From Oscillospiraceae bacterium (GTDB lineage Bacteria > Bacillota > Clostridia > Oscillospirales > Ruminococcaceae), in the NCBI GenBank assembly GCA_017427265.1, contig JAFRTG010000013.1, positions 1 to 33,036 of the forward strand: a stretch of DNA of 33,036 nucleotides, written 5' to 3'. Shown here in pieces: positions 3,826-32,795 of the stretch. A program made the position numbers and the translations under genes. Every line of letters starts with the position of its first letter. Position 1 is the first letter of the stretch. The notes beneath the pieces are model-generated. The model made no database searches and was not told the DNA's origin. It was given only the letters and a program-made list of their open reading frames with translations.

Positions 3826-3828
3826 AGT

Positions 3829-6470: not shown

Positions 6471-6497
6471 ATCGGATCACTCCTTTCGTGTATTGTA

Positions 6498-8888
6498 TTA
6501 CAGAATCAGTATTTCGTGCTCGCCGCCTTCCAGCGTGATGCCGAAATCGGCGTGATAAAATCGTTTGTCAAGCAGCTTCACGACGGTCTTTCCGCACGGC
6601 AGATCATACAGTGCACGTTCGTCCGCAAGCCTGTGCTCGGTTCCCGCATAGATGCTGACAGCAAATTTCTGCGCCTGACGCAGCAGCCTGACGGTCTCAC
6701 CGGGATTCTGCTCGCTGCCGAGTGCCGCAATCAGCGTTTCTGCCTCGGCATTGTACGGCACAATCACATTGGTCGTGCGGGAATCAATCACCTCAAAAAG
6801 CGAACCCGCCGTTTTGAAGGCCTGCCCGCAGAATTTCAAATGTGGATTTCTGGTATCTGAAATGCGGTGCCGGTTCAGTGACAGCAGATTGAGCAGATCC
6901 TGATCCGCTGTATTATTCAGCGGATACCGCAGCACATCCCTGAAATTGCGGTTCTGCGCATTCCGGTACAGCTTGCGGAAATAATCCGACATCAGCGGCA
7001 CACTGAGAAAATCCGTATCCGCCGGCATATTGAGCATTTCCGCCGAGATGTTCTGCGCCTCCTTGATTTCCGCAAGGCTGCCGAGCTGTTCCTCATAGAG
7101 CTTCAGAATATACACCGGACATTCCCTGTGATACTCGCCGTTCCGGTTGCAGCGCCCCGCTGCCTGCGCTGCATTGTCCATGCCCGCCATCGAACGCACC
7201 ACGCATCCGAATGAAATATCCACACCGGCCTCAATCAGCTGTGTTGTAACACAGATCACAGGTTCCTGTGCGGCAAGCGCCTGCTTCATCTCGCTGATTT
7301 TTTCACGGCGGTGCTGCGGGCACATATTTGTGCTGAGATGATAAACCGCTGCACCGGCTGTATCCTGCAGACGCTGATACAGCGCCTTCGCCGAGGCCTT
7401 CGTATTGACGACTACCAGCAGACTGCCGTTTGCGGAGAACTGTTCCCTGCAGAAGGCCGCAGCCTCATCATAGGAATAATCCCCTTTTTTCTGCTGATAG
7501 ATCAGCTTTGTGCGGTGGAAAGTTTCAAAATCCGCCGCCGTATCCCCTGTCATGCTGCTGTTCTCATCCAGCAGCAGCGGAAAGCTGCCGAGCAGATCGA
7601 ACGGCGGCTGCGTCGCCGAGCAGAGGACAACCGTGCTGCCACAGACCCGCGACAGAAAATTTATGGCCAGATTAAACATGTACACGCATTTCAGCGGCAC
7701 AGACTGCACCTCGTCAATGATGATGACCGCACGGGAAAGCCGATGCATCCGCCGGACAGCGCCTGTTTTCCCGGAAAAAAGCGCATTCAGGAACTGCACC
7801 ATCGTCGTCGCAATGACCGGAGAATCCCATTTTTCTGTCCGGAGCTCATATTCATGCAGAAGGCCGTCATCCTCGGATACCTCGGCAAGCATATTGGAAT
7901 GATGCTCCAGAAACGCGGTTTCTCCTGCGATTTCACGGATCACATCGCTGTTCTGCTCCAGAATGGACATGAACGGCGCAACGTAAATGATCTTTTCGGC
8001 TGAATGCTTTCCTGCGTACTCAATCGCAAAACGCAGCGAGGAAAGTGTTTTGCCGCCGCCCGTGGGCACAATCAGTCTGCAAATCTGCACATCGTGTGCC
8101 GCAAACGCAGCGCACCGGTCTGAAATGCTTTTTCGCTGCAGAGAAATTGCATCTGTTCTGCCCGCGAAAGAATCCAGCTTCTGCTGCATCCGCTGATGCA
8201 TGTCCTGCCAGAGCCGGGCAGTATCAAATTCCGCTTCCGTTTTCGTTCCGGACATAAAATCAGCGGTATTCGTGCGGTCTGCGTCAATCAGAACAGACTG
8301 CAGCAGACGTTCCAGCATTCCGAGATAAAAAGCGAAGGATTCTTTCTTTCGTTTATCGTCAGCGTTCAATTCAGAAAGCTGCCGCAGTTTTTTTCGGAGC
8401 GCGGTGACCTCCGCAGCCGCAGCCGCAAGCGCAGTACGGATATCCGGCAGAAACGGCGTTTCCTGAAGATTCTGCACGATTTCCGAATAGTATTTTTCCT
8501 TTGCAATCCGGATATGATAAATGTCTTTTGCATCATCGTCCGCCCAGTCGTGAAGTCCGTGATGCGACAATATGACACGGCCGATCAGGGATGCTGTTTT
8601 TTTCAGATTTTTGTCATCCGTCAGTTCTCCGGCAGCCTCGATATATTTTGCGCCGGCAAAGCTGTGATCGAGCTCGCCACGCCGGAAATCCGTTTGCTGA
8701 TGAATATAGGCGTCAAAGTCAGCAGTCAGCTTTCCGATATCATGCAGGCGTGCAGAAAGCTCTGCCGTTTTTGAAAGCAATATCTTTGCGGCATATTTTG
8801 CTGCAATTTCAGCTGTTTCACAGCAATGATCCGATACCCTCTGTTCCATGCCGTCCGCCGGACGAATGTGCGCAGTATGCTGCATCAT
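6498..8888 (-). CDS. cas3: CRISPR-associated helicase-nuclease Cas3 (HD + DExH)
   Basis: About 796 residues. The N-terminal HD nuclease has His21 and the RLHDIGK motif at residues 47-53, then the ILSHHGLHDW segment. The superfamily 2 helicase follows, with Walker A VPTGGGKT near residue 276, the DEVQ box in VIIIDEVQSV near 391 and LCSATQPP as motif III. The C-terminal half contains VVVNTKASAKALYQRL and the motif VI region QAAGRCNRNGE. Cas3 unwinds and degrades target DNA after Cascade binding. Two ATGs are adjacent (8888 and 8885); a good AAGGAG suits either. First gene of the operon, directly behind a consensus promoter. Confidence 0.97.
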   Translation of the reverse strand: MMQHTAHIRPADGMEQRVSDHCCETAEIAAKYAAKILLSKTAELSARLHDIGKLTADFDAYIHQQTDFRRGELDHSFAGAKYIEAAGELTDDKNLKKTASLIGRVILSHHGLHDWADDDAKDIYHIRIAKEKYYSEIVQNLQETPFLPDIRTALAAAAAEVTALRKKLRQLSELNADDKRKKESFAFYLGMLERLLQSVLIDADRTNTADFMSGTKTEAEFDTARLWQDMHQRMQQKLDSFAGRTDAISLQRKSISDRCAAFAAHDVQICRLIVPTGGGKTLSSLRFAIEYAGKHSAEKIIYVAPFMSILEQNSDVIREIAGETAFLEHHSNMLAEVSEDDGLLHEYELRTEKWDSPVIATTMVQFLNALFSGKTGAVRRMHRLSRAVIIIDEVQSVPLKCVYMFNLAINFLSRVCGSTVVLCSATQPPFDLLGSFPLLLDENSSMTGDTAADFETFHRTKLIYQQKKGDYSYDEAAAFCREQFSANGSLLVVVNTKASAKALYQRLQDTAGAAVYHLSTNMCPQHRREKISEMKQALAAQEPVICVTTQLIEAGVDISFGCVVRSMAGMDNAAQAAGRCNRNGEYHRECPVYILKLYEEQLGSLAEIKEAQNISAEMLNMPADTDFLSVPLMSDYFRKLYRNAQNRNFRDVLRYPLNNTADQDLLNLLSLNRHRISDTRNPHLKFCGQAFKTAGSLFEVIDSRTTNVIVPYNAEAETLIAALGSEQNPGETVRLLRQAQKFAVSIYAGTEHRLADERALYDLPCGKTVVKLLDKRFYHADFGITLEGGEHEILIL

Positions 8889-11848: not shown

Positions 11849-12295
11849 TTGAAAATAAAGCTGAAAGTTTCCGAAGAAAAGTATCGAGAAATCGCAGATG
11901 AACTGAGCGCAAAGGGAATTGAGATAAATGAACAGGCAGATCTGATCCTGATAGAGCGCAATGCTTCGGCAAACTATCTGATCGGAAAAAGAGATGAGGA
12001 AATCTACCGATTGAACACCGCTGATATTTCCCATATTGAAAGCTTTGCACATGATGTGATTGCATATACGGACAGCGGTGCCTTCAAGATCAATGAGCGT
12101 CTGAAAGCACTGGCTGTCATGCTTGATCCGAATGTGTTTATCCGAGTCAGCAATTCTGTGATTCTCTCAGTGAATCATATTCAGAGCATAAAGCCTGCAT
12201 TTACGCAGAAATTTATTGTTACGATGAAAAGTGGAGCAAAGATCGACGTAACAAGAAGCTACTACTATATTTTCAAAGAGTTTTTCGGAATCTGA
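11849..12295 (+). CDS. LytTR-domain DNA-binding regulator without receiver domain
   Basis: 148 residues. The C-terminal 100 residues form a LytTR domain: ISHIESFAHDVIAYT, then FIRVSNSVILSVNHIQSI and a final DVTRSYYYIFKEFFGI. The first 45 residues are a short alpha/beta segment, not a response-regulator receiver, so the protein is a one-component LytTR regulator. No ATG fits; the frame starts at a TTG six bases after GGAAGTGAT. Such stand-alone LytTR proteins often pair with a membrane protein in the same operon, and here the next gene is one. It probably binds the double box at 11728-11761 and controls itself and the divergent exporter; this is inference from layout. Confidence 0.88.
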   Translation: MKIKLKVSEEKYREIADELSAKGIEINEQADLILIERNASANYLIGKRDEEIYRLNTADISHIESFAHDVIAYTDSGAFKINERLKALAVMLDPNVFIRVSNSVILSVNHIQSIKPAFTQKFIVTMKSGAKIDVTRSYYYIFKEFFGI

Positions 12296-20563: not shown

Positions 20564-21353
20564 TCCTGAAGCTGCTGATATGGAGCGCGAAATACTGGCG
20601 TTATCAGAATCTCCGAAAACTGTACTGTTTGGTTTTCAGGGAACAGCCGGTGTGCGCAGTACGGATCGTGTAACCTGCCTGCACGTCGGCAGCAGCGCTA
20701 TGACAATCGGCGGACTGCACCGTGCACTGAATGCAGATGAACAAAGCCTGCTGCATCGTACGTTCGGGAATTCCGGCTATAAGCTGGCGTTTGAAGATGA
20801 TATGGAAGGCTGGCTGTACTGTCACACTGCTTTTATCCTTCCGATCGTTTACCTCAGCTATCATTATGGCTGTAACCTGCGGAATGCTGACGGAAAAGAT
20901 GTCTCCGCCATGATGAAAGCCGCCGAGGAAGCCTACAGTCTGATTGATGCCTGCGGAATAAAAATCCGTCCAAAGGGGGATGCGGATTATTTCAGAAGCA
21001 AGCCGAAGCTGGCTGTTCTGAAAGCGATCATGTATATCATAAGTCAGACAAAGCTCGGAGAATTGGCTGCGACCGACCATTGCAGAAATGCAGCCACTGA
21101 AATGGAATGGTTGGATGCGGCTTTTAAAGCACTGCGGCAGGCGCATCCCGAACAGGAAATGCCGGAATGGGAAAAGCTGCGAAATGCAATGCCGTCATGG
21201 GAAGAAATCCATGATACCTATGACCACGGGACTAAAATTACAGTATATGATCCGTCAGTGAAGCGAAAAAAAGCAACCGCAGTCTTGTTGCTTGCAGGCG
21301 GATTGGCTGCGGCTGTCTGCATTTATAAGAAGCAAAAGAAGAATGATTTATAA
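20502..21353 (+). pseudogene. Ketopantoate reductase-like protein (ApbA/PanE family), N-terminus deleted
   Basis: The frame is open from 20502 and recognisable from HAPIVILVGNNPEAADMEREI, then SPKTVLFGFQGTAG, VGSSAMTIGGLHRAL and the helical C-terminal domain including KAIMYIISQTKLGELAATDH and LDAAFKALRQAHPEQEMPEW. It ends in a hydrophobic segment and a basic tail (AVLLLAGGLAAAVCIYKKQKKNDL). This layout fits COG1893 reductases from Clostridia. The N-terminal Rossmann domain with its GxGxxG NADPH motif, about 100 residues, is missing. An ATG at 20580 has no ribosome site. The remaining part cannot bind NADPH in the known way, so it is probably dead. Confidence 0.75.
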
Positions 21354-21380
21354 CATACAAGATCAATCATGAAAAATTCA

Positions 21381-21421
21381 GGCACCCCCTTACCGATATA
21401 AGGCAAGGGAGTGCCGTTTTT
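21381..21421 (+). terminator. Rho-independent terminator of the reductase-like gene
   Basis: GGCACCCCCTT (21381-21391) pairs with AAGGGAGTGCC (21405-21415) with one mismatch and is followed by GTTTTTC. It lies about 30 bases after the stop codon. Confidence 0.85.
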
Positions 21422-21451
21422 CATGTACAACTGAGATTGCGTTCTGATCGC

Positions 21452-21996
21452 TTACTCAGCGTTTTCCTTGCGCCGGATAATCCCGGAGCGCTTGACTAAG
21501 AGCAGAAGCCGAAGCCGATCATTGCCAATGCGCCCATTACCGCAAGCATACCAGCAGCCGAATTGTTTCCTGTCTGCGGAAGATTCACTTCGGCGTTCTC
21601 GGCATCTACGCCGACACCTGTCTTTGGATCGATGGTGTAGGTATCCAGCACCTTACTTTCTTTATCGGTGATCGTGATCTCGTAGGTGCCGTCTTCTTTT
21701 ACAAGCAGTGATGCGTTTGTTCCGGTCACACCGTTCTTGCTTTCATAGTCGTGCTTTGCCCAGCTGCAAAGCTCCTCATCGGAAGCAATATGGTTGGATT
21801 TATCGACCGGTATGATTTCTTCCGTACCGAAAACAGGAGCAAGCGTTCCTTGTTTCCAGGAATTCAGGTCAGAACCGTCATTGGTATAGAACAGGAAATG
21901 AGAAAGCCCCTCTTTGTTATGCTCGGTCATGTCCTCAAGGTAGGTGCTGACATCTTTCAGTATTTCGGTCATATTTGTTTTGTTGGTGTTCAGCAG
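21452..21996 (-). pseudogene. C-terminal part of an LPXTG surface protein, with a frameshift in the anchor
   Basis: The coding frame begins without a start in LLNTNKTN (about 21996), passes the ATG at 21972 and continues as an extracellular domain (TYLEDMTEHNKEGLSHFLFY, then YEITITDKESKVLDTYTID) to the sortase signal LPQTG with a following hydrophobic span GMLAVMGALAMIGFGF. There the frame stops after two further codons. In the frame reached by restoring one base, the sequence goes on as LLLVKRSGIIRRKENAE and a stop at 21452, exactly the hydrophobic end and charged tail a sortase substrate needs. So the gene has lost its N-terminus and carries a one-base frameshift in its anchor. Confidence 0.75.
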
Positions 21997-22121
21997 ATTT
22001 TTACATATAGTGACTCTTTCTCAGTTTCCAGCATCCGGACAGACTGCTGTGCTGCCTGCAATTTCTCTTTCAGCCGGTTCATGCGCCGCCGGATAGACAT
22101 GATAAAGTTCAAAGTTTCCAT
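21990..22121 (-). pseudogene. 43-codon coiled-coil fragment
   Basis: The minus strand reads METLNFIMSIRRRMNRLKEK, followed by a charged coiled-coil segment that ends ETEKESLYVKIC and a stop. Only a weak ribosome site precedes it. Just upstream, the plus strand at about 22197-22250 holds an open tail reading QLKKEKETLYDELNAKRG, whose EKE-x-LY-x-L pattern resembles this fragment's end. Both may be pieces of the same kind of small coiled-coil protein in opposite orientations. Family unknown. Confidence 0.35.
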
Positions 22122-22330
22122 GTAATGCGTTCCTGCTGATGTTTCAGGATACGTTGCATATGACATAGTCAGCGGCCTGCACCTGTAATTCGTCAGCTCA
22201 AAAAAGAAAAGGAAACGCTTTATGATGAGCTGAATGCAAAACGGGGATAGATTGTTGCAGAATTTACTAAGTAAAACGATTGAAAAACATTAAAACCATA
22301 ATGAAAATATTATGGAAATAATTTGCCGCC

Positions 22331-22359
22331 TTGACAAATGGACTACAATATGCTATAAT
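22331..22359 (+). promoter_or_regulatory. Consensus sigma-A promoter of the bacteriocin locus
   Basis: TTGACA (22331-22336), 17 bases, TATAAT (22354-22359): a perfect match, about 155 bases before the exporter ATG. No other promoter of comparable quality was seen through 30293, so it may serve the whole locus. Confidence 0.9.
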
Positions 22360-22441
22360 TATTTCTGACAATAATATTTATGCCTTTTTTTACTCATTGT
22401 AATTGAAGGAGCGAAAACAAAGTACAAAAAGTGAGTAGAAC

Positions 22442-22476
22442 CAGTTAATTATTTTATAACTGATTTTTTGTTTTTT
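22442..22476 (+). promoter_or_regulatory. Attenuator-like hairpin in the exporter leader
   Basis: CAGTTA (22442-22447) pairs with TAACTG (22457-22462) and is followed by a long T-rich tract (ATTTTTTGTTTTTTA). The stem is short and AT-rich, so termination would be partial. It lies inside the untranslated leader of the bacteriocin transcript. Confidence 0.45.
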
Positions 22477-22521
22477 ATCAATTTCACATTTTACATTTGA
22501 TTTTCAGAAAGAGAAATATTA

Positions 22522-24771
22522 ATGAGATATACTTATATAAAACAACATGACGCAACTGATTGTGCGGCTGCATGTCTTGCGATGGTATGCCTGCACTACA
22601 AAAAAGAAACTACAATAACGCAGCTTCGTGATATGATGGGAACGGATCTGAAAGGAACGAACCTGATAGGTCTGTCCCAGTGTGCAGATGCACTCGGGTT
22701 TGTCTCTCGGGCGATTCGTGTTGACCGTGAAAATTTCCTGACTGATTTTACTTTGCCGTGCATTGCAAACGTTATTACCAAAGAAGGCTTGACACATTTT
22801 GTAGTTGTCTTTAAGAAAATTCGGCAGAAAAAAAAGGATTATGTGATTATCGGAGACCCTGCAAAGGATCTGATGAAAATCACACTGGATGAATTCTACG
22901 AAACATTTACCGGAACTTTGCTTTTGCTGAAACCGGATGCACGGTTTGTTTCGGGAAAAAACGAAAAAGGCAAGATCTTCAACCGGTTTCTGAAATTGCT
23001 TCTTCCTCATAAGAAACTGTTTGCCTATTCCATTATTGCATCTGTTATTTTGACTATACTTGGCATTGTTTCCTCACTCTTCAATAAGATTTTGATGGAC
23101 GAAATTCTGCCATACAAACTGAAAAATCCGCTGCTGCTTGTCGTAATTGTATTTGGACTTCTCGCAGTTGTACAGACTGTCATCGGATTTGTCCGCCAAT
23201 GGATGATGATTTATCTCTCGCAGAAAATTGATATTCCACTACTGCTTGGCTACTTTGAACATATTTACAAGCTTCCGATGAAGTTCTTTGCATCGAGAAA
23301 AACAGGCGATATTATCACACGATTCAGCGATGCCTTCACAATCAAAGATATTTTCACGAACATAGCACTGACACTAATCATGGATGTCGCCATGGCGATC
23401 ATCACGGGCATTATTTTGTTCAATATGAATCTTCCGCTGTTCGGCATCATTCTTTGCCTGACGATTTGCAGTATTCTGCTTGTTTTTATTTTCAAGCATC
23501 CATATAAGAAGATCAATGAAGAACAGATGCAGCAATCCTCTGTGCTGAATTCTCAGATTATCGAAGGTCTCCGCGCTGTTGAAACGATCAAAGGCAATGC
23601 AAATGAGGAGACTGAACTGGAAAATATCGAAAAGGAATATATCAAGTCATTACGAATTGGAGTCAAGGAAAGCATGCTTTCCAATGTACAAGGCTCCATT
23701 TCTAACCTGATCTCGACAGCCGGCAATCTAATCATTATGTATTTTGGCATCAGGCAGGTCATTGACGGAAAGCTTACTCTAGGCTCTTTGATGGCATTCA
23801 CCACAATGGCTGGCTATTTCATGGATCCTGTCGGCAGACTGGTCGGTTTACAGCTGCAGATTCAGGAAGCGAATATTTCTATGAAGCGTCTGACCGAAAT
23901 TATGGATTCTGAAACAGAGCAGAGCGATGGCAACTACACAGAACTGGAATCCTTCGACGGTGATATCGAGATTAACAATGTCACATTTCGCTATGGCAAC
24001 AGAAAACCTGTCCTGAACAATATCTCGTTTACGATTCCAAAGGGAAAAAAGGTTGCGCTTGTCGGCGAAAGCGGCAGCGGAAAATCCACGATTGCAAAAT
24101 TGCTGCTGAAATACTACGAACCGGAAAGCGGCGAAATTCTGGTTGACGGCATGGATCTAAACGAAGTGGATAATGAATCTCTCCGCAAAACAATCTCTTA
24201 TGTGCCGCAGACGATAGAGCTGTTTTCCAAAAGTATTTATGACAACATCCGCGTATCCAAAATGAATTCAACGCTCGAAGAAGTGAAGCAGGCTGCAAAA
24301 GAAGCAGATGCACATGAATTTATTAAGAAGCTACCGATGCAGTATTACACCTATCTGCAGGAAGCCGGAAACGGATTGAGTGGCGGCGAGAAGCAACGCA
24401 TTGCGTTGGCAAGGGCGTTCCTGAAAAAAAGCAATTTCTATATTCTTGATGAATCAACGAGCAATCTGGATTTTGCGACAGAAAACATCATTTTCGATAT
24501 GATTTACAACAAATTTCGGAACAAATCTATGCTGATCATCGCGCACCGTCTTGCTACGGTCAAAAACTGTGATCAGATTCTGGTTCTGGATAAAGGTGAA
24601 ATTGTCGAACAGGGCACCCATGAAGAACTGCTCGAAAAGGGCGGCAGGTACAAGCGGCTCTGGGAGATGCAGCAAGGCAATTTTATTATCAAAGAAGAAG
24701 AACCATCACCGCAGTCTGAGCATGTTGCAGAAGTCATTGAAGATGACGACGACACTTTGGTTTATACTTAA
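22522..24771 (+). CDS. Peptidase-containing ABC exporter (C39 type) for double-glycine peptides
   Basis: 749 residues in the order peptidase, membrane domain, ATPase. The C39 cysteine protease covers residues 1-130: Gln8 and Cys14 in QHDATDCAAACL, His92 in LTHFVVV and Asp112 in IIGDPAKD, all catalytic positions present. Six membrane helices follow (about 155-450). The ATPase has Walker A GESGSGKST near 515, signature LSGGEKQR near 617 and Walker B FYILDESTSNLD near 640. The enzyme cuts leaders after Gly-Gly and exports the cores, as in LagD or ComA. The three next genes have such leaders, making them the obvious substrates. An HlyD adaptor in the same cluster completes the exporter. Confidence 0.97.
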   Translation: MRYTYIKQHDATDCAAACLAMVCLHYKKETTITQLRDMMGTDLKGTNLIGLSQCADALGFVSRAIRVDRENFLTDFTLPCIANVITKEGLTHFVVVFKKIRQKKKDYVIIGDPAKDLMKITLDEFYETFTGTLLLLKPDARFVSGKNEKGKIFNRFLKLLLPHKKLFAYSIIASVILTILGIVSSLFNKILMDEILPYKLKNPLLLVVIVFGLLAVVQTVIGFVRQWMMIYLSQKIDIPLLLGYFEHIYKLPMKFFASRKTGDIITRFSDAFTIKDIFTNIALTLIMDVAMAIITGIILFNMNLPLFGIILCLTICSILLVFIFKHPYKKINEEQMQQSSVLNSQIIEGLRAVETIKGNANEETELENIEKEYIKSLRIGVKESMLSNVQGSISNLISTAGNLIIMYFGIRQVIDGKLTLGSLMAFTTMAGYFMDPVGRLVGLQLQIQEANISMKRLTEIMDSETEQSDGNYTELESFDGDIEINNVTFRYGNRKPVLNNISFTIPKGKKVALVGESGSGKSTIAKLLLKYYEPESGEILVDGMDLNEVDNESLRKTISYVPQTIELFSKSIYDNIRVSKMNSTLEEVKQAAKEADAHEFIKKLPMQYYTYLQEAGNGLSGGEKQRIALARAFLKKSNFYILDESTSNLDFATENIIFDMIYNKFRNKSMLIIAHRLATVKNCDQILVLDKGEIVEQGTHEELLEKGGRYKRLWEMQQGNFIIKEEEPSPQSEHVAEVIEDDDDTLVYT

Positions 24772-24895
24772 CGGTGAATACGCTTTGTGCAGAAAAAGCG
24801 TTCACATATCATGATATGGTCTGCAACATATCATTTCAACACATACTCATTTTATTTTTTACATGGATACAAAAATGTATCGGAAAGGACTAAAA
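24772..24895 (+). promoter_or_regulatory. Precursor 5' element, copy 1 (two hairpins with complementary loops, plus SD hairpin)
   Basis: Hairpin 1: ACGCTTT (24780-24786) with AAAGCGT (24795-24801), loop GTGCAGAA. Hairpin 2: ATGATATG (24811-24818) with CATATCAT (24827-24834), loop GTCTGCAA. The loop cores TGCAGA and TCTGCA are exact complements. Hairpin 3: GATACA (24866-24871) with TGTATC (24876-24881), loop AAAA, directly before the ribosome site GGAAAGGA. A 12-bp palindrome ATATCATGATAT (24806-24817) overlaps hairpin 2. The element begins right after the exporter stop codon and is nearly identical to copy 3. Confidence 0.7.
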
Positions 24896-25237
24896 ATGGA
24901 AATGACTTATAATGGCACATTGGTAATGCCCAAGAACTTCGTTGTTGTTGACGAAGAAGAAATGACATATACAAACGGAGGCGAACACTATCAAGTATTT
25001 ATCCCGGCTTCTGTTTGTGGTGATTTAGCCAATTACGGCGTTGCTGCAAGTGCAGCAGTATTAGCTTTGTGTGGCCCGATTCCAGGAGGTGGAATTATTG
25101 CAGGAGTTGCCACTGGTACTGCATATGCAGCGCTTACTGCGTATTATGCTCTTGCGTCAAAACATAATGGAATGACATTGCACGTTTACACAGTTGGAAA
25201 CACTCCTGTTGCATGGGTTCCTGTAATTAACTGGTAA
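24896..25237 (+). CDS. Double-glycine bacteriocin-like precursor 1
   Basis: 113 residues. The start is the ATG after GGAAAGGA; an earlier in-frame ATG at 24863 lies in the SD hairpin region and has no counterpart in the other two copies. Leader: 29 residues beginning MEMTYNGTLVMPKNF and ending EEEMTYTNGG, a clear C39 cleavage site. Core: 84 residues starting EHYQVFIPAS, rich in Ala and Gly (AASAAVLALC, GGGIIAGVATGTAYAALTAYYAL), with two Cys (core positions 12 and 30) and ending WVPVINW. The hydrophobic middle with small residues is typical of pore-forming class II bacteriocins. No known family is recognised, and the core is long for the class. Confidence 0.85.
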   Translation: MEMTYNGTLVMPKNFVVVDEEEMTYTNGGEHYQVFIPASVCGDLANYGVAASAAVLALCGPIPGGGIIAGVATGTAYAALTAYYALASKHNGMTLHVYTVGNTPVAWVPVINW

Positions 25238-25242
25238 CCAGC

Positions 25243-25344
25243 CTTTTCTTGCGTTCACATGTATTGATATGGTCTGCAACATATCATTCAGCACAATGTT
25301 ATTATTTATTAATAGATACGAAAACGTATCAGAAAGGAAAGAAA
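25243..25344 (+). promoter_or_regulatory. Precursor 5' element, copy 2 (diverged)
   Basis: It keeps the GCGTTCACAT block, hairpin 2 (TGATATG 25265-25271 with CATATCA 25280-25286, loop GTCTGCAA unchanged) and hairpin 3 (GATACG 25315-25320 with CGTATC 25325-25330, loop AAAA) before AGAAAGGAAAG. The left arm and loop of hairpin 1 are missing, so the loop-loop pairing seen in copies 1 and 3 cannot form here. Confidence 0.65.
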
Positions 25345-25683
25345 ATGGAAATGCCTTATGATGGCGCATTAGTAATGCCCAAGAATTTCGCAACAGTTGA
25401 CGAGGAAGAAATGACCTATGTCGACGGTGGACTATCAATTCAACATGAGTGGTGGGGATTCCGTTTAGATCTCACCGCGCAAGAATGCACTGATATAGCC
25501 ATAGCGGGTGGCACTGGAGTTACTATAGCAACGATTAAAAATCTTATCCCCAATAAAGCATTACAGATAATCTTGGCTGTGGCTGAGGGCTACCTACTTC
25601 TGTGCGGCAACCATAACGGTGCATTTTTAATTTACAGCCCGTTGATTCCGACTATGACAACTGGTCTTATGATCAAGTGGTGA
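25345..25683 (+). CDS. Double-glycine bacteriocin-like precursor 2
   Basis: 112 residues. The leader MEMPYDGALVMPKNF to EEEMTYVDGG matches precursor 1 at most positions. The 83-residue core starts LSIQHEWWGFRLDLTAQECT and is unlike that of precursor 1 until the end: a Gly-rich helix (IAIAGGTGVTIATIKNL), a second helix (ALQIILAVAEGYLLLC), then LIYSPLIPTMTTGLMIKW. It has two Cys. The C-terminal ends of precursors 1 and 2 are both proline-containing and finish in a Trp (VINW, MIKW), hinting at a distant relation or paired action. The ribosome site is AAAGGAAAG. The stop codon sits in a TGATTT-TTCG-AAATCA hairpin. Confidence 0.84.
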   Translation: MEMPYDGALVMPKNFATVDEEEMTYVDGGLSIQHEWWGFRLDLTAQECTDIAIAGGTGVTIATIKNLIPNKALQIILAVAEGYLLLCGNHNGAFLIYSPLIPTMTTGLMIKW

Positions 25684-25721
25684 TTTTTCGAAATCATCTT
25701 AAAAATCAGAATAGCTCTCAA

Positions 25722-25843
25722 TAACGGTGAGTACGCTTTGTGCAGAAAAAGCGTTCACATATCATGATATGGTCTGCAACATATCATTCAGCACAATCTT
25801 ATTATTATTAACAGATACGAAAACGTATCAGAAAGGAAAGAAA
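25722..25843 (+). promoter_or_regulatory. Precursor 5' element, copy 3
   Basis: Nearly identical to copy 1 over its first 75 bases. Hairpin 1: 25733-25739 with 25748-25754, loop GTGCAGAA. Hairpin 2: 25764-25771 with 25780-25787, loop GTCTGCAA. Hairpin 3: GATACG 25814-25819 with CGTATC 25824-25829. The closing pair of hairpin 3 is G-C here and A-T in copy 1, a compensatory change. Confidence 0.7.
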
Positions 25844-26203
25844 ATGGAAATGACTTATGATGGCGCATTAGTAATGCCCAAGAGTTTCGCTGTAGTTGAC
25901 GAAGAAGAAATGACATATGTTGATGGTGGAAGCTGGTCAGGAGCGCTGTTCAGAGACAACGTTGTCGGAGGCGTTCAGAGAGCAATTGCAAATTACAAAG
26001 GACCGATTCTTGCACAGTGTGGAATTACACTTTCTGTTGTAAAGGGATGGTGTGCCTATAGCTATTCATGGCTCTGTGCTCATATTGGATGGAAGGTCGT
26101 TAAGATTGCTTCGATCGTTGGCGGAATAATTGCAGGTATTGTTGCAGCCGCTTCCTGTGTTGCTGCGGTCTACATCATGGGAACTAGAAAAGTTTTTTGC
26201 TAA
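25844..26203 (+). CDS. Double-glycine bacteriocin-like precursor 3
   Basis: 119 residues. The 29-residue leader (MEMTYDGALVMPKSF to EEEMTYVDGG) differs from the other two at only a few positions. The 90-residue core starts SWSGALFRDNVVGGVQRAI and carries five Cys: in AQCGITL, GWCAYSYSWLCAHIGW (two), AASCVAAVYI and the final residue. A long hydrophobic helix IASIVGGIIAGIVAAASCVAAVYIM lies near the end, followed by a basic tail GTRKVFC. Several cysteines could form disulfides outside the cell. The core shares no clear sequence with precursors 1 and 2. The ribosome site is AAAGGAAAG. Confidence 0.84.
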   Translation: MEMTYDGALVMPKSFAVVDEEEMTYVDGGSWSGALFRDNVVGGVQRAIANYKGPILAQCGITLSVVKGWCAYSYSWLCAHIGWKVVKIASIVGGIIAGIVAAASCVAAVYIMGTRKVFC

Positions 26204-26226
26204 TATTTGACATCAGATTTCACAAA

Positions 26227-26262
26227 GATTCGGGTCTCATATTCATATATGAGACTCGAATC
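26227..26262 (+). repeat. 16-bp hairpin between the precursors and the downstream genes
   Basis: GATTCGGGTCTCATAT (26227-26242) pairs with 26247-26262 with one G-U wobble and a TCAT loop. No T-tract follows, so it is not a standard terminator. It could stabilise the 3' end of a processed precursor mRNA or partly stop transcription. Confidence 0.65.
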
Positions 26263-26286
26263 TCTCATGGCATGAAAGGAATAATC

Positions 26287-27399
26287 ATGAAAGATAAATG
26301 GTATATCTTGTTTATCATTGCATACATTACATACATGTGTGGCTTCTTGGATTTTTCTACTTTTTTCACCCAATCGCTTAATGAATTAATCAGATCGCTG
26401 ATTTCTTCAATCATATCATTTGTCTTTGTTATTGCCATATATTTTGATATGGTCTCCATCATAAAGATAGTATATAACAAAATACATCACTTAGAAAACA
26501 CGATAGTTGTTTTTTTCCCGTTTATAGTGTTTAATTATCCGAAGAAATCTGTTACACTCAGTCTGGATATTACTGTATTTTTCAATACGTTTTACCCTCG
26601 TAATCTGTTGTGCGATAGTTCTAAAGGATACAATGAAATTAGAACTGAAATTATTCGGTATGAAAAAAATGTTTTGAATTTAGAAAGATTATTTGTTGCC
26701 TGCGTTTATTTTGTTTTATTTATTTTCAGAAGGTATTTTTTTTCGGTTTCTCTTTTGTTCTTTTTCTTGACCCTACGGGATATTCGGCTCATAAACAATG
26801 ACTTGATTGTTGGCAGCATCTATCGAATTGATAATACAGCGAGTTTTGAAGTACAAACATTACTTGCGAAGCAATTATGTTTATATAGCTCTTGGAATTC
26901 TCCGATTTATACAGAATATGTAAATGACCTTAGCGGTCATCTTTCAAACGATACTGTTACTGTAAATAGTATTGAGTTTCTTTCCTTAGATTTGTTTGTA
27001 TCAGGCACAGATTTTTTTAATAAGAAGCACTGGGTTTCTATAAAACCGATTCTGATAGACAATTATGCATTTGGCAATGATTTTACTACTCCGCTGAATA
27101 ACGCTTTATGGTCATTTTACCGTTTAGTTTTTCTTTATGCTATTATTGGGCATAACGAAAAGATTAAAGCGGAGATGTTTTCTAAATTTGAAGAAATTAA
27201 AAGTAATTGTACAGGTGCAGGATCAAAAATAATGAATAATTACTTGGACAGATTTATGGACAATCACAGTCCTGAATATGTTCTATGCAATCTAAAAAAA
27301 TACATTGGGATTGATAAAATTTTCAGAGATTCACCGACAGGCAAAGCAGCAATCTTAAATATTATGAATAAACTTAGGGAGGATGTTGTCCATGAATAA
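26287..27399 (+). CDS. Unknown membrane protein of the bacteriocin locus
   Basis: 370 residues, not recognised. Hydrophobic segments lie near residues 6-22, 40-62, 70-84 and 135-161; the last 200 residues are soluble and mixed alpha-helical (EKIKAEMFSKFEEIKSNC, PEYVLCNLKKYIGID). I looked for an HExxH site-2 protease motif, common in bacteriocin-cluster membrane proteins, and found none. The start is the ATG six bases after AAAGGA. The gene is clearly AT-richer than the genes left of 22260 and overlaps the next gene by eight bases. Its place straight after the precursors suggests immunity or a role in export, but nothing in the sequence proves this. Confidence 0.75.
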   Translation: MKDKWYILFIIAYITYMCGFLDFSTFFTQSLNELIRSLISSIISFVFVIAIYFDMVSIIKIVYNKIHHLENTIVVFFPFIVFNYPKKSVTLSLDITVFFNTFYPRNLLCDSSKGYNEIRTEIIRYEKNVLNLERLFVACVYFVLFIFRRYFFSVSLLFFFLTLRDIRLINNDLIVGSIYRIDNTASFEVQTLLAKQLCLYSSWNSPIYTEYVNDLSGHLSNDTVTVNSIEFLSLDLFVSGTDFFNKKHWVSIKPILIDNYAFGNDFTTPLNNALWSFYRLVFLYAIIGHNEKIKAEMFSKFEEIKSNCTGAGSKIMNNYLDRFMDNHSPEYVLCNLKKYIGIDKIFRDSPTGKAAILNIMNKLREDVVHE

Positions 27400-27862
27400 A
27401 ATTGAACTGGCATACAACAAAACTTTGAAATTATCAAACGTTTTGATTTTTGAGATTAAACTGAATGAAGAAACCAATATTGATAGAGAAATTACGCAGA
27501 TGGAAAACTTCATTAAATCAAAAGGTGCAATCCCAATTGGTCCGTTAATCCAAAAAACTGTATATCAAACTGGTGAATCCGGAGAACCCGTTATCAGAAT
27601 CTATTTAATGAGGCAGGTAAACACTTTTATTTATAAAATTGAATCACCTTATACAATGGAGTCTGTTATCCGCGTAAGGAATTGTGCTTATGTCAGATAT
27701 ACTGGTCCAGAGGAAAAAATAAAATTTGGTTACGATAAGATAAATGTTGATGCTTTTGAAAAAGGGATTGAACTTGCCAATGAAAACTACACTATTTTCG
27801 TTGATAAGCAAGACGACACCATCATAGCTGATATTTTCGTGGAGAAGAAATCCGATGACTAA
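27392..27862 (+). CDS. Small soluble protein of unknown function in the bacteriocin locus
   Basis: 156 residues from the ATG after GGGAGG. No membrane helix or signal peptide. Mixed alpha/beta, with segments LSNVLIFEIKLNEETNIDRE, SKGAIPIGPLIQKTVYQTG, VIRIYLMRQV and the end ENYTIFVDKQDDTIIADIFV. The pattern is loosely like GyrI-type ligand-binding domains or DUF5085 proteins, which share a GPL block after a central helix, but the similarity is weak. It overlaps the genes on both sides by eight bases and is therefore translated with them. A cytoplasmic immunity or sensing partner is possible. Confidence 0.7.
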   Translation: MNKIELAYNKTLKLSNVLIFEIKLNEETNIDREITQMENFIKSKGAIPIGPLIQKTVYQTGESGEPVIRIYLMRQVNTFIYKIESPYTMESVIRVRNCAYVRYTGPEEKIKFGYDKINVDAFEKGIELANENYTIFVDKQDDTIIADIFVEKKSDD

Positions 27863-28979
27863 AAAGACAATCAAAAACATTGTAGACTTAAAAGACAGCC
27901 GTCTGCTCTATGAAAAGGAGCTTCCGCCGTTTGGCTATATGATTGTGTCAATCACCGCAATTCTTCTGATTCTGGTTTTGATATGGAGTCTGAAAACGCC
28001 GAAAACCTATGTAGTTAAAAGCCAGGGTATTGTGGAAAGCACAAACAAAAACTTTATCATGTCTCCGTTTACCGGCAAAATTAGCAGGATGAATATTTCT
28101 GAAGGAAGCTTTGTTGATGAAGGTGATGTGCTTTTTACAGTTGAAAGCACAGAACTCGATTTGCAGGAAGAACAAATCAGTGGACAGATTAACGTTTACA
28201 GCGAAAATGTCAGCCAGCTGAAAAAGCTGGAGCAGTCCATTATGGACGGGGAGAACCTCTTCGACATTACAAAAGCGAATGACAGACAGTATTATAATCA
28301 ATATGAAGCCTATATGAGCCAGATCAAGCAAAACGATATAGATACCAGTACCTATAAAGCCTATGGTTACTCAGATGCGCAGATCAAAGCTGAGCTTGAT
28401 AAAAACAATGCAAAGATCTCAGAAATCTATTATTCTACGCTGAAATCCATAGATGAAAGCATCACACAGTATGAAACTGAGATCGAAAAGCTAAAGGTTC
28501 AGAACAATGCAATTGCGAACGGGCAATCAGAATATCAAGTTCTTGCAAACACCTCCGGCATTGTTCATATGATCAATGAATATAAAGAGGGTATGGTCGT
28601 TCAGGCAGCTGGTGCTATCGGAAGCATCGCAAACGAAAATGATCAATATATTGTGACGGCTTACCTCAACGTGAATGACAGACCAAGGGTTTCTTTGGGC
28701 GATAATGTCAATATCGAAGTCGTCGGACTTGCACAGAATACTTACGGCAATCTGAAAGGTAGGCTGCTCTCTGTTGATAATGATATTTCAACAAGTCAGA
28801 ACGGTGAACAGAGCTTTTTTAAATCAAAAATCGAAATTGAAACACCCTATCTGATCAGCAGTAAGGGCAACAAAGTAAACATCTCCAACGGCATGTCAGT
28901 CGAAGCAAGAATCATTTATGATGAGCTTACCTATTTCGATTATTTGCTTGAATCGTTGGGATTACTAACGAGGGAATGA
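27855..28979 (+). CDS. HlyD-type adaptor protein of the bacteriocin exporter
   Basis: 374 residues. The N-terminus is cytoplasmic, then one membrane helix near residues 26-45 (YMIVSITAILLILVLIWSL). A half lipoyl-type domain (VVKSQGIVESTNKNFIMSP, GKISRMNISEGSFVDEGDVL) leads into a coiled coil of about 120 residues, and the second half follows with ANTSGIVHMINEYKEGMVVQ. A beta-barrel ends the protein. This is the layout of LcnD/ComB accessory proteins, which assist C39 exporters in Gram-positive bacteria. Its ATG overlaps the previous gene, and the next gene starts three bases after its stop. Confidence 0.93.
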   Translation: MTKKTIKNIVDLKDSRLLYEKELPPFGYMIVSITAILLILVLIWSLKTPKTYVVKSQGIVESTNKNFIMSPFTGKISRMNISEGSFVDEGDVLFTVESTELDLQEEQISGQINVYSENVSQLKKLEQSIMDGENLFDITKANDRQYYNQYEAYMSQIKQNDIDTSTYKAYGYSDAQIKAELDKNNAKISEIYYSTLKSIDESITQYETEIEKLKVQNNAIANGQSEYQVLANTSGIVHMINEYKEGMVVQAAGAIGSIANENDQYIVTAYLNVNDRPRVSLGDNVNIEVVGLAQNTYGNLKGRLLSVDNDISTSQNGEQSFFKSKIEIETPYLISSKGNKVNISNGMSVEARIIYDELTYFDYLLESLGLLTRE

Positions 28980-28982
28980 TTT

Positions 28983-30293
28983 ATGAAGAAAACGATTTGT
29001 ATTGCGCTTTCTGCTCTTGCATTCTGCGCAATGCCATTCCATATAAGTGCTGAGGAAGCTGAGCAATTGCCTCCCGAATCATCTGCAAATCCATCTGTTG
29101 CTGAAACAGGAGAGAAACCAGATCAAACCGATGCACCGAGCCCCGATCTTCCGGTTGCAGCCGTTGAGCCGCTGGTAACAGATTATCCCTATGATTCGGC
29201 TTTCAGCATTCCCGAAACAGTGTACATTCCTGTAGAAAGCATAGAACTTGCTGAATTTAAAACTAAGATGTACGTAGAGGAAACGCAGAATCTTTCTGCT
29301 ACTGTCAGTCCGTCAAGCGCTACAAATCATGATGTAAGCTATTCATCCTCCAACACCCGTGTAGCCACAGTCAGTGCTGGCGGCAAGCTGACAGCTGTAG
29401 GAAAAGGAACTTGCCAGATCTATGTTTCCTGCGATAATTACAGTGTCTATTATCCGTTGACTGTTAACGTCAAAACTGAATCGATCGAAGTTGTGAGCAA
29501 ATTTATCGTTCTCAAACCAGGTGAACAATTGGATTTGGAGGCAGCAGTACAGCCTGCAGAAGCCCCACAGGAACTAAAATTCAAATCAGATGACGATTCT
29601 GTTGTACAAGTCAGCGAAGGCGGAATTCTGACTGCTGTTGCAACCGGAAGCACATCTGTGATTGTATCCAATGAGGACGATACAATCCTCGTGAACGTAA
29701 TTGTCAGCACGGACAAGGAAGCAGCCCTGATTCAGAATCCAGAAGAGTCGGACGATGCTTCTGATTCACAAAAATCTGACAGCCTTGCAAAACAAATCCG
29801 CGAGACCAACGAGCGTGAAATTATCGTAAAGAATCTGAGTTGCATCTCCTCCGAAGTGTTAAAAGCACTTTACGGAACCGATAAATCACTGACCGTCGAT
29901 CTGGAAGAATACACGCTTTCTATCCGCGGGCAGGATATCTTCAATGCGAACAACGAAATTAACACAAAACTTGAACTGGCTGATATGGATAGCGGCATGC
30001 TTGTGACTTTGGGAGAGGAAAACCTTCCTGGCACCATCAGCATTGCACTGAAAAATGCACCAAAGAAGTACAAGTATTTCTACCTTGTCAGTCCGAGGGA
30101 CGGTGTGTATCAAGCATTAAACTCATTGTCTGATAACACGTTCAAAGTTAGCAGTATCGGGCAGTATTTGCTCTCCACTAAAAATATGAACCGCAGAAAG
30201 ATCAATATTGTGTGGGTTCTGGGTGGCATTGGCGTGATTTTTCTGCTTTCTCTCATTTACATATTTACGAAGAAAAAATATTGGTTTTGGTAA
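28983..30293 (+). CDS. Membrane-anchored protein with two bacterial Ig-like (BIG2) domains
   Basis: 436 residues. Signal peptide at 1-23 (MKKTICIALSALAFCAMPF), a Pro/Ser/Glu-rich linker to about 75, then two BIG2 domains: about 80-160, with SPSSATNHDVSYSSSNTRVATVS and LTAVGKGTCQIYV, and about 165-240, with LKPGEQLDLEAAV and LTAVATGSTSVIV. A further domain of about 140 residues of unknown type follows, and a membrane helix near 411-430 with a short basic tail anchors the protein. It lacks an LPXTG motif. Last gene of the bacteriocin transcript, three bases after the HlyD gene. A surface protein at this position might help release, immunity or binding of the peptides; this is a guess. Confidence 0.88.
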   Translation: MKKTICIALSALAFCAMPFHISAEEAEQLPPESSANPSVAETGEKPDQTDAPSPDLPVAAVEPLVTDYPYDSAFSIPETVYIPVESIELAEFKTKMYVEETQNLSATVSPSSATNHDVSYSSSNTRVATVSAGGKLTAVGKGTCQIYVSCDNYSVYYPLTVNVKTESIEVVSKFIVLKPGEQLDLEAAVQPAEAPQELKFKSDDDSVVQVSEGGILTAVATGSTSVIVSNEDDTILVNVIVSTDKEAALIQNPEESDDASDSQKSDSLAKQIRETNEREIIVKNLSCISSEVLKALYGTDKSLTVDLEEYTLSIRGQDIFNANNEINTKLELADMDSGMLVTLGEENLPGTISIALKNAPKKYKYFYLVSPRDGVYQALNSLSDNTFKVSSIGQYLLSTKNMNRRKINIVWVLGGIGVIFLLSLIYIFTKKKYWFW

Positions 30294-30319
30294 CCATAGT
30301 AAATACGAAATACATATAT

Positions 30320-30354
30320 AAACCGCCGCTTGACTTCAAATCAGACGGCGGTTT
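30320..30354 (+). terminator. Terminator of the bacteriocin locus
   Basis: AAACCGCCG (30320-30328) pairs with CGGCGGTTT (30346-30354), with further inner pairs TTGA/TCAG-type and loop CTTCAAA; a TTTCTC tail follows. It is the second copy of the hairpin form found at 12945-12979. Region 30294-30509 holds only this and the next terminator. Confidence 0.8.
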
Positions 30355-30465
30355 CTCATATTCTCTATCCGATGTCCCCTCTCCCGGCGAGCTCCTGCGC
30401 ACCAGAACAGAACACTGTTTCCTGTGCAAATGTTTTCTGAGGCGTTGGTTCGTCTGAAAAGCAAA

Positions 30466-30486
30466 GCGCCCGGCATGGCCGGGCGC
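30466..30486 (-). terminator. Terminator of the P-type ATPase gene
   Basis: GCGCCCGGC (30466-30474) pairs perfectly with GCCGGGCGC (30478-30486) around three bases, followed on the minus strand by TTTGCTTTTC, just after the ATPase stop codon. Confidence 0.85.
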
Positions 30487-30509
30487 AAATAGCAGATAAC
30501 CTGTTCCAA

Positions 30510-32795
30510 TTATACCCACTCATGATTCAGCTTCATATAAATACGCTTCAGAATCTGCGCAAGGATTGTATAGACGACCATCAGACCTGCAAGCCAAATC
30601 ATATAAGACGGCACCATGACCGGCAGATCAAACAGCGTTGCTATTCCTGTAAATCCGATCAGCAGCGTTGCAATGACAACAAGCAGGGTTGAAATACTGA
30701 GCTGAACCGATGCACGCTCTTTGATAAACGGTACTTTCGGTGTGCGGATCGTATGAATTACCACCGTCTGCGAAATGACGCCGAACATAAACCAGCCGTT
30801 CTGGAAGAAGCCTGCCAGCGACTCGTTATTGAAGCGGTAAATAAACCAAAGAACGAGGAAGCAAAGTACATCAAGCACGGTGCTGAGCAATCCGAAAATC
30901 ACCATAAACTTTTTGATGCCAGGAATGTTCCACTTCTTCGGCAGACGGATACTCTCATCTTCTACATGATCAAACGGCATACCGAGCTGCGCGAAATCAT
31001 TGAGGATATTCTGCACAAGAATGTGGATCGGCAGCAGCGGGAGGAACGGCAGGAAGATGCTTGCAATCAGCACAGAGAACATATTGCCGAAGTTGCCGCT
31101 GACCGACATTTTCAGATACTTCGACATATTCGCAAAGGTGCGGCGGCCTTCAATGACACCTTCATCCAGCATATTGAGGTCTTTTTCCAGCAGGATGATA
31201 TCCGCAACTTCCTTTGCAATATCGACCGCGGTATCAACGGAAATGCCGACATCAGCCTGTTTCAGCGGCAGGCTGTCGTTGATGCCGTCGCCCATATAGC
31301 CAACCGTATGCCCGTTGGTCTGGAACGCCTTGACCACGCGCTGTTTCTGATACGGCGACAGTTTCGAGTAGATATGACATTTTTCGCAGGCGGCAAGCAG
31401 TTCTTCATCGGTCATCGCCTCGACCTGTGAACCGGTCAACGTATATTCCGTCGGAATGCCGAGCCGTCCGCAGATGTTGATCGCAACGCCCTCGGTATCG
31501 CCTGTCAGGACGACCGTGCGAACACCGTTCTTCTGCAATGCCTTGACTGCCGATTCTGCAGAGGGCTTCGGCGGATCGAGGAAGCCGACAAAACCAATCA
31601 GAACCATATCGCTTTCATCATCCACGCCGAAATGCTCGATATCGTGGATATTGTTTTTCTGTGCAACGGCAATCACACGGATGCCTTCGAGATTGTTTTC
31701 TGTTGCGATCTTCTGTGCGTTTTCGATCAGTTCCGGCGTGATTGCTTTGACTTCGCCGTCAATTTCGATATGGCTGCAGATCGAGAGGATTTCCTCGACA
31801 GCACCCTTTGTCACAAGCTGCCGCTTGCCGTTTTTATCGCGCAGCACAACGCTCATGCGGCGGCGGCTGAAATCAAACGGGATCTCATCCTCACGCACAT
31901 AGGTCTCTTTCAGATAGGAAAGCTCCTCTTTTTCGCCGCGGTTGATGATCGCAACATCCATAAGGTTTTTCAGTCCGGTCTGGAAGTAGCTGTTCAGGAA
32001 TGCATGACGCAGCACGCGCTTGTCCTCACGCCCGAGCACATCCATATACTTTTCCAGCACAAATTCATCCTGTGTCAGCGTACCGGTTTTGTCGGTGCAG
32101 AGAATATCCATTTCACCGAAGGTCTGAATCGAACCGAGACGCTTGACGATTGTCTGCTTCTTCGACATGTTGACAGCGCCCTTTGCAAGCGACGAGGTCA
32201 TGATAACCGGCAGCATTTCCGGCATCAGACCGACTGCAATCGTGATGCCGAACATCAGCGAATCGAGCCAACTGCCCTTTGTGATGAAGTTTGCAATGAA
32301 GATGATCGGCACCATGACAACCATGAACTTGATAAGCAGACTGCTGATCGAATTGATATTGCGTTCAAAGCTGCTCTTATCCTGATAAGTATTCAGGCTT
32401 TTCGCCATACTGCCAAGATAGGTGCGGTTTCCGGTTGTCAGAATGACCGCTTTTGCACTTCCGGAGATGATATTGCTGCCCATGAAGCCGATATTGTCAA
32501 GCTCTGTAATGTCATCGCCAACTGGATCGGGACCGGCAAATTTCTCGATCGGATTGCTTTCTCCGGTCAGCTGCGATTGATCAATAAAGAGGTCTTTTGT
32601 CTCAATAAAACGCACATCGCCGGGGAGCATATCACCGGATGCCAGTTTGACGACATCGCCCGGAACGGCATCTTCTATGTCGATTTCCATGCTGCTGCCG
32701 TTTCGGATAACATCTATTTTATTGGAGATCATGTTTTGCAGCTTTTCCGCGGCACTGTTGGATTTTTCCGTCTGTACAAAGGAAATGTCAAATAG
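30510..32795 (-). pseudogene. mgtA: Mg2+-type P-type ATPase (MgtA family), N-terminus missing
   Basis: The frame is recognisable from about 32795 (ISFVQTEKSNSAAEKLQNMI) to the stop. It contains the actuator loop with LFIDQSQLTGES, the PEMLP membrane motif (VGLMPEMLPVIMTSSLAKG), the phosphorylation site DKTGTLT near residue 213 counted from the ATG at 32732, the hinge VGYMGDGINDSLPLKQADVG and six C-terminal helices. PEMLP and overall order point to type IIIB magnesium transport ATPases, usually about 880-900 residues. The first 130 or so residues, with the N-terminal tail and helices 1-2, are absent; upstream the frame reads WLFD and a stop. The 740-residue remainder probably cannot transport. 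Confidence 0.88.

Follow-up and report, generated by a model that had tools for sequence, protein, structure and literature searches.

A MAM-type C39 exporter locus with three putative bacteriocin-like cargos in an Oscillospiraceae genome

The anti-inflammatory protein MAM of the gut bacterium Faecalibacterium has been studied intensively. Here we consider a stretch of DNA of 33,036 nt from an Oscillospiraceae bacterium (assembly GCA_017427265.1, 3.8 Mb in 49 contigs; contig JAFRTG010000013.1), hereafter the window, and in particular a compact run of genes, all on the plus strand, extending from a promoter-like site at 22331-22359 to position 30293. The genes follow in the order: C39 exporter, three precursors with leaders ending in Gly-Gly (GG leaders), a 370-aa membrane protein, a 159-aa soluble protein, an HlyD adaptor, and an Ig-like (Big_2) protein. 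We propose, at about even chances, that this is an exporter locus of the type that serves MAM, loaded with three putative bacteriocin-like, membrane-active cargos. A peptidase-containing ABC transporter (PCAT) with GG-leader cargo is a known kind of system; the new elements would be the MAM-type exporter combined with two unlisted core families and a DUF5085-type partner.

The exporter gene (22522-24771) encodes a PCAT of 749 aa, in which a C39 peptidase domain is fused to the transmembrane and ATPase domains of an ABC transporter (PF03412, PF00664, PF00005; TIGR01193, 601.3 bits at a cut-off of 523.85). It retains the active-site and ATPase motifs and is the single match to the C39 peptidase family in the whole assembly. 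Its top-scoring solved structures are 4ry2 and 8vp3, which we take to be PCAT1 of Clostridium thermocellum, the likeness covering the exporter alone. The HlyD-family adaptor (27855-28979; PF13437, E = 7.3e-17) is followed by the Ig-like protein (28983-30293; PF02368 in two stretches, E = 8.1e-22), which has a hydrophobic segment close to either end (residues 3 and 406), read as a signal and a membrane anchor. These family matches bear out the C39 exporter and the HlyD adaptor named in an earlier note on this DNA, which had also stated that the locus holds no modification enzyme. Indeed, when the eight proteins of the run were scanned against Pfam and NCBIfam, none belonged to a modification-enzyme family, two of the eight, the 370-aa and the 159-aa proteins, matching no family above the cut-off.

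The three precursors have 113, 112 and 119 aa (24896-25237, 25345-25683 and 25844-26203) and consist of a 29-aa GG leader followed by a core of 84, 83 and 90 aa, respectively, exactly the nearly identical leaders and the core lengths that had been claimed. Cores 1 and 3 contain a glycine zipper (GxxxGxxxG and SxxxGxxxG), and core 2 has no strict one. In pairwise comparison the leader DNA is 79, 84 and 90% identical; no other leader match was found in the assembly (E up to 10, single-sequence query). The residues V(-12), E(-8), M(-7) and GG agree with the PCAT consensus quoted in PMC12184118 (here and below, published articles are cited by PMC number and for extracts of their text), and the pattern of hydrophobic residues at -12, -7 and -4 with Glu at -8 is present in all three leaders, except that precursor 1 has Thr at -4. 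Thus, the exporter-leader logic of the note, a C39 exporter with GG leaders, holds.

The related loci come from one contig scan with the alignment of the 159-aa protein (n = 43, including 20 from Faecalibacterium), the window being the 44th; several contigs end inside the locus. All four export genes (for C39, the 159-aa protein, HlyD and the Ig-like protein) are present in 26 loci, the C39 gene in 34, the 159-aa gene in 42 (by construction), the HlyD gene in 35, and the Ig-like gene in 31. The window has the four genes in the order characteristic of the MAM locus type, and the same set and order are found in 20 of 20 Faecalibacterium loci, in 14 of which the leader profile also detects a precursor inside the fetched stretch. 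PMC8836110 places mam near a PCAT gene and describes a cluster in which HlyD is accompanied by an Ig-domain protein and, third, a hypothetical open reading frame (ORF) that we identify as the 159-aa protein; in some strains mam is located elsewhere in the chromosome. The Faecalibacterium precursors of our set have the MAM leader as quoted in PMC12184118, where 95.33% of the sequences with the MAM leader motif are assigned to Faecalibacterium.

Hence the window shares with the MAM locus the export gene set and its order, a nearly identical leader end (EMTYV-x-GG in precursors 2 and 3), and large cores (98-131 aa in the 25 unique MAM-like ones). It differs in having three precursors with repeated upstream boxes and the 370-aa membrane protein, and the MAM-like cores have no detectable homology to those of the window. 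The exporters differ as well: in a 32-row tree, the 20 from Faecalibacterium fall into a single clade with full support, whereas the window groups outside it with the related loci L031 (sheep omasum), L030 and L043. The MAM leader motif MMMPANx(8,11)VxGG, as given in PMC12184118, is not matched by the window leaders, which read VMPKN or VMPKS at the corresponding place. Homology of the cores to MAM was not detected, core 3 coming closest (E = 0.28, hhalign probability 7.8%), and when the four cores under test were shuffled 1000 times, one shuffle scored higher against the MAM profile; at these values core 3 is not established as a remote MAM homologue. MAM is among the leading candidates for an effector of a gut bacterium linked to health, and its export genes would form one clade of a wider family in which cargos are exchangeable, immunity-like genes occur and the partner is of the DUF5085 type.

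The three cores had been described as unrelated, which stands for core 3 and fails for the other two. For cores 1 and 2, distant kinship is indicated weakly, yet more than once: their pairwise comparison gives z = 4.5 (one of 500 shuffles as good), and core 2 scores 19.0 bits (none of 1000 shuffles as good) with a profile built from core 1 and its relative in L037, an uncultured member of Eubacteriales (34.1 bits, again none of 1000). Core 3 is, on sequence comparison, a separate family, two profiles revealing no kinship with cores 1 and 2 (768 and 232 of 1000 shuffles as good). Its own relative is located at L096:1408-1749 in genome G605, from another family of the same class (pairwise E = 3e-8; one of 1000 shuffles better in the profile test). 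The precursor there has a leader of the same type, ending in EEMTYIEEG (Glu-Gly, not Gly-Gly), and one base downstream begins an 82-aa ORF with two hydrophobic segments; since the query was the core alone, this leader and the following ORF independently support the kinship.

A search of 371 genomes of the class with core 3 gave matches (E up to 0.05) in 16 genomes besides its own, among which only that in G605 spans the whole core, the remaining matches being partial, in long frames or interrupted; in 194 genomes of the family of G605, the core 3 profile found G605 and seven weak matches. The entire precursor 3 matched three of 197 genomes at the family level, its own included, the other two mainly via the leader; viral contigs yielded seven pattern matches and no relative, and plasmids no match. 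The profile of cores 1 and 2 found, in 295 genomes of the order, the window (both cores) and five other genomes at E of 0.001-0.009. As the earlier note had surmised, the cores lie outside the known families, at least those of Pfam, NCBIfam and PADLOC, none of which gave a curated family above its cut-off: Bacteriocin_IIc (PF10439) scored 11.1-15.7 bits (cut-off 27.1), NCBIfam gave no bacteriocin family and only antiporter models far below the cut-off for precursor 1, and PADLOC gave nothing at E up to 0.1. On this comparison, two core families are absent from the libraries searched. The model of core 1, built from five sequences, has modest confidence (predicted local distance difference test, pLDDT, 69.9) and comprises a strand, helices and a C-terminal strand hairpin.

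Glycine zippers, defined as (G/A/S)xxxGxxxG or GxxxGxxx(G/S/T) in the core, are more numerous than in shuffled cores. For the 26 cores outside Faecalibacterium (the three of the window included) we observed 48 motifs against 21.2 in shuffles (0 of 1000 as high), and for the Faecalibacterium cores, 46 against 21.7 (3 of 1000), the rows being partly homologous; 19 of 23 Faecalibacterium cores bear a zipper, with 11.1 expected (2 of 1000). These counts lend support to a membrane-active nature of the cores and fall short of proving it.

The soluble 159-aa protein (27383-27862, start perhaps at 27392), whose gene runs 8 nt into hlyD, appears to be a remote relative of DUF5085. Its AlphaFold2 model (six sequences, pLDDT 89.5) has the element order E-H-E-E-E-H-E-E, which corresponds to the duplicated strand-helix-strand-strand arrangement of the DUF5085 / GyrI-like fold, reported for the DUF5085 proteins ExiA and ExiB (PMC12744356). 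Among 27 members of its family, Pfam DUF5085 (PF16895) matches seven at E up to 1 (best E = 3.3e-5), and a GyrI-like family matches one (E = 1.4e-4); 15 further families have hits to no more than one or two members apiece (E of 0.0099 or worse) and are read as noise. In the reverse search, Pfam DUF5085 matched six places in five of 236 genomes of the class, one of them above the curated cut-off. The 159-aa profile recognizes every one of the six (with E-values that refer to single-locus ORF sets), and three adjoin a C39 gene and small ORFs with GG leaders, these ORFs being recognized by eye where the leader profile is silent; a further such place, L026, was found via the 159-aa protein itself. 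The AraC effector-binding domain of PDB entry 9rtm, a candidate relative at E = 2.1 with six sequences, disappeared with 27 and was not used.

It is reported that cytoplasmic ExiB binds the glycine zipper of the type VII toxin EsxX, whereas protection from outside is given by polytopic membrane proteins (PMC12744356), and that TipE neutralises TelE, the neighbouring membrane protein not being protective (PMC10434224). Because ExiB and TipE act on glycine-zipper toxins in the producer, we propose that the 159-aa protein could be a holder of the cargo. Among the literature matches listed, none joins DUF5085 and PCAT loci, apart from the table entry for RtgX in the extracts of PMC7018657. A DUF5085-like gene beside a C39 exporter would be a handle for genome mining of large GG-leader peptides missed by the bacteriocin models tried. 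Two compact loci, L125 and L126, in which a DUF5085-like gene is accompanied by several ORFs of 60-101 aa with GG leaders (by eye) and a C39 gene, resemble classical class II bacteriocin loci. At L122:8005-10385 (genome G761), a DUF5085-type gene above the Pfam cut-off lies by four ORFs (171, 184, 111 and 89 aa), and no C39 exporter is present within the 16 kb read; these neighbours may be another kind of cargo.

The 370-aa predicted polytopic membrane protein (26287-27399; four hydrophobic segments) occupies the slot after the precursors, where many relatives have hydrophobic ORFs, and by its position and topology is a candidate for self-protection (immunity). The occupant of the slot was defined, rather crudely, as the longest ORF of at least 45 aa starting at most 250 nt after a precursor. 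Such an ORF with a hydrophobic segment follows 16 of 23 precursors outside Faecalibacterium (the window apart), one of 23 in Faecalibacterium, and one of three in the window (the 370-aa protein); 13 of 23 Faecalibacterium precursors have no follower at all, and nine have a follower with no hydrophobic segment. The ORFs with hydrophobic segments could be immunity genes. At L032:6759-7907 and L071:6696-7835 the slot proteins, of about 380 aa, are similar to the 370-aa protein in size and position; the former belongs to the M50 peptidase family, barely above the cut-off, and the latter matches no family.

The precursor genes are themselves a mosaic. Each is preceded by a repeated upstream box (24769-24895, 25251-25344 and 25722-25843), with 126-nt and 56-nt blocks present in three copies each, and each box contains a direct repeat, ACATATCAT-N13-ACATATCAT at 24804-24834, a copy with three mismatches at 25257-25287, and another at 25757-25787. 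The direct repeats, 22 nt apart, have three matches in the window against a shuffle mean of 0.07, the copies being duplicates rather than independent; genome-wide, beyond these three, there are four matches with three mismatches against one for the reversed control, which we read as chance. A LytTR DNA-binding protein encoded at 11849-12295 (PF04397, E = 6.3e-19) might act as a regulator at these repeats. Between the precursors, the similarity of the upstream and leader DNA exceeds that of 300 of 300 shuffles, whereas the core DNA of two pairs does no better than shuffles (152 and 180 of 300 as good) and that of cores 1 and 3 is marginal (4 of 300), the drop occurring at the Gly-Gly codons within one or two 15-nt blocks. 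It looks as if one leader cassette had received new cores, with the leader and the upstream DNA kept. Precursors 1 and 3 have boxes that agree at 99% over their first 67 nt, against 84% identity for the leaders, so the cassettes also look recombined. Fragments of exporter genes, confirmed by tblastn, lie between or beside the cassettes of precursors and membrane proteins in L037, L106 and L125, which suggests capture of cassettes by recombination at the exporter gene.

The leader-cutting rule and subsequent export are established for C39/PCAT systems. In the cytosol, the 159-aa DUF5085-like protein would bind the hydrophobic Gly/Ala-rich cores and thereby spare the membrane of the producer. 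The leader common to all three would then be cut by the C39 domain after Gly29, and the core carried out by the transporter together with HlyD and the anchored Ig-like protein that presumably faces the wall. Outside, the cores would hit membranes of competitors, singly or together, while the 370-aa membrane protein may shield the producer. Over a longer time, the cargo genes would be swapped as cassettes, the pattern of kept leaders and replaced cores being seen in the DNA. A bacteriocin function of the locus is plausible.

Several observations weigh against this scheme. Outside Faecalibacterium, zipper-bearing cores are not significantly enriched (14 of 26 against 10.5, 83 of 1000 shuffles); in the window the strict zipper is confined to cores 1 and 3, and 0.32 and 0.37 of their own shuffles, respectively, have one too. 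The 159-aa protein of the window has itself no Pfam match and no DUF5085 match at E up to 1 (cut-off 30 bits), and its family profile found nothing significant among the solved structures. Three of the six DUF5085 places have no adjacent exporter, and the 159-aa protein occurs in seven of 394 genomes of the order, making the system patchy. For the 370-aa protein, a search of 295 genomes of the order gave two weak interrupted matches besides itself and no confirmed relatives; it has no match in the related loci, including none to the 379-aa slot protein of L071. Of the near relatives, L030 has two precursors and no hydrophobic ORF after them, and L031 has such an ORF after one of its two precursors.

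The export genes seen here are also those used for MAM, which is abundant in the envelope of Faecalibacterium, so that the main rival to bacteriocin-like action, in our view the likeliest reading, is a role other than antimicrobial: the cores may be MAM-like envelope or host-interacting proteins, assembled on the surface via the MAM-type exporter and involved in no killing. We consider this possible and rather doubtful. The homologous parts reach 61-66% for C39, 40-47% for the 159-aa protein, 41-44% for HlyD and 30-37% for the Ig-like protein across all 20 Faecalibacterium loci, and MAM is described as the most abundant envelope protein, forming a lattice-like array (PMC12184118). Core 3 beats all 250 of its own shuffles with the MAM profile and has the C-terminal A-x-Y-x-(M/L)-G pattern in common with it, and the L030 precursors, with no immunity-like ORF after them, fit an envelope role too. 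However, no core is detectably homologous to MAM (the E-value and hhalign probability of core 3 being those given above), the exporter of the window lies outside the Faecalibacterium clade, and a membrane protein sits in the slot after the window precursors.

It is improbable, in our opinion, that the peptides are ordinary multi-peptide class II bacteriocins and the 159-aa protein is a regulator, or a GyrI-like protein binding small molecules, rather than a holder of cargo. Proteins of the GyrI-like fold are as a rule geared to small molecules (PMC12744356), and the pneumococcal rtg PCAT locus lists a GyrI-like RtgX with its role not stated in the extracts of PMC7018657; on the other hand, the 159-aa protein has no DNA-binding domain in the Pfam and NCBIfam scans, its gene overlaps that for HlyD, and the DUF5085 proteins ExiB and TipE act on glycine-zipper toxins (PMC12744356, PMC10434224). 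We hold it very unlikely that the peptides serve as secreted pheromone signals or in a chiefly regulatory role, although some PCATs do export peptide pheromones (PMC8836110). The direct repeats before every precursor and the LytTR protein would suit such a role, but the LytTR gene is 12.5 kb away, the repeats are mutual duplicates, and no kinase or receptor family was found among the ten proteins scanned at 20580-30293. To our knowledge, cores of 83-90 aa also far exceed the known GG pheromones in length.

Other systems resemble the proposed bacteriocin-like locus in part. The rtg locus of Streptococcus pneumoniae (PMC7018657) likewise has a PCAT, an accessory protein and several GG peptides, five of the seven with downstream genes likened by the authors to immunity genes; its Table 2 lists RtgX, a 'GyrI-like hypothetical protein' with no role, which is likened to the 159-aa protein by label only. 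It differs by its Rgg-type regulation and, in the gene table as extracted, by having no Ig-like protein. The Cdz system of Caulobacter (PMC5380434) has leader-bearing glycine-zipper proteins, type I secretion and a small membrane immunity protein, and kills while retained at the surface, a likeness by description, not by sequence; however, it is Gram-negative, and no DUF5085-like or Ig-like partner is described in the extracts. With the type VII pairs of EsxX/TelE and ExiB/TipE (PMC12744356, PMC10434224) the window shares the DUF5085-related soluble partner and the presence of polytopic membrane proteins in the neighbourhood, which protect in the case of EsxX and not in that of TelE, whereas the toxins there are LXG proteins using another secretion machine. 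As a tentative conjecture, more doubtful than probable, the MAM exporter may be one branch of a clostridial machinery that usually carries membrane-active, bacteriocin-like proteins, kept harmless in the cytosol by a DUF5085-type partner as with the glycine-zipper toxins of type VII systems; MAM would then be a tamed descendant or cousin of such cargos, having lost its immunity gene and turned into a surface protein.

The promoter-like site at 22331-22359 has 12 of 12 matches to the sigma-70 consensus, a 17-nt spacer and TG before the second hexamer, and probably drives the operon. Because the region 22100-30600 contains 27 promoter-like sites against a shuffle mean of 22.8, only this perfect site stands out. 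Just upstream of the operon lie an ORF of no known family (20580-21353, plus strand) and an ORF on the minus strand (21496-21972) with a weak match to the LPXTG-anchor model TIGR01167 (16.3 bits, cut-off 15.9). Farther away, at 130-900 and 1281-8888 (minus), a stretch rich in repeats resembles an array of clustered regularly interspaced short palindromic repeats (CRISPR) and adjoins ORFs that, by eye from the ORF list, resemble cas genes presumably of type I-C.

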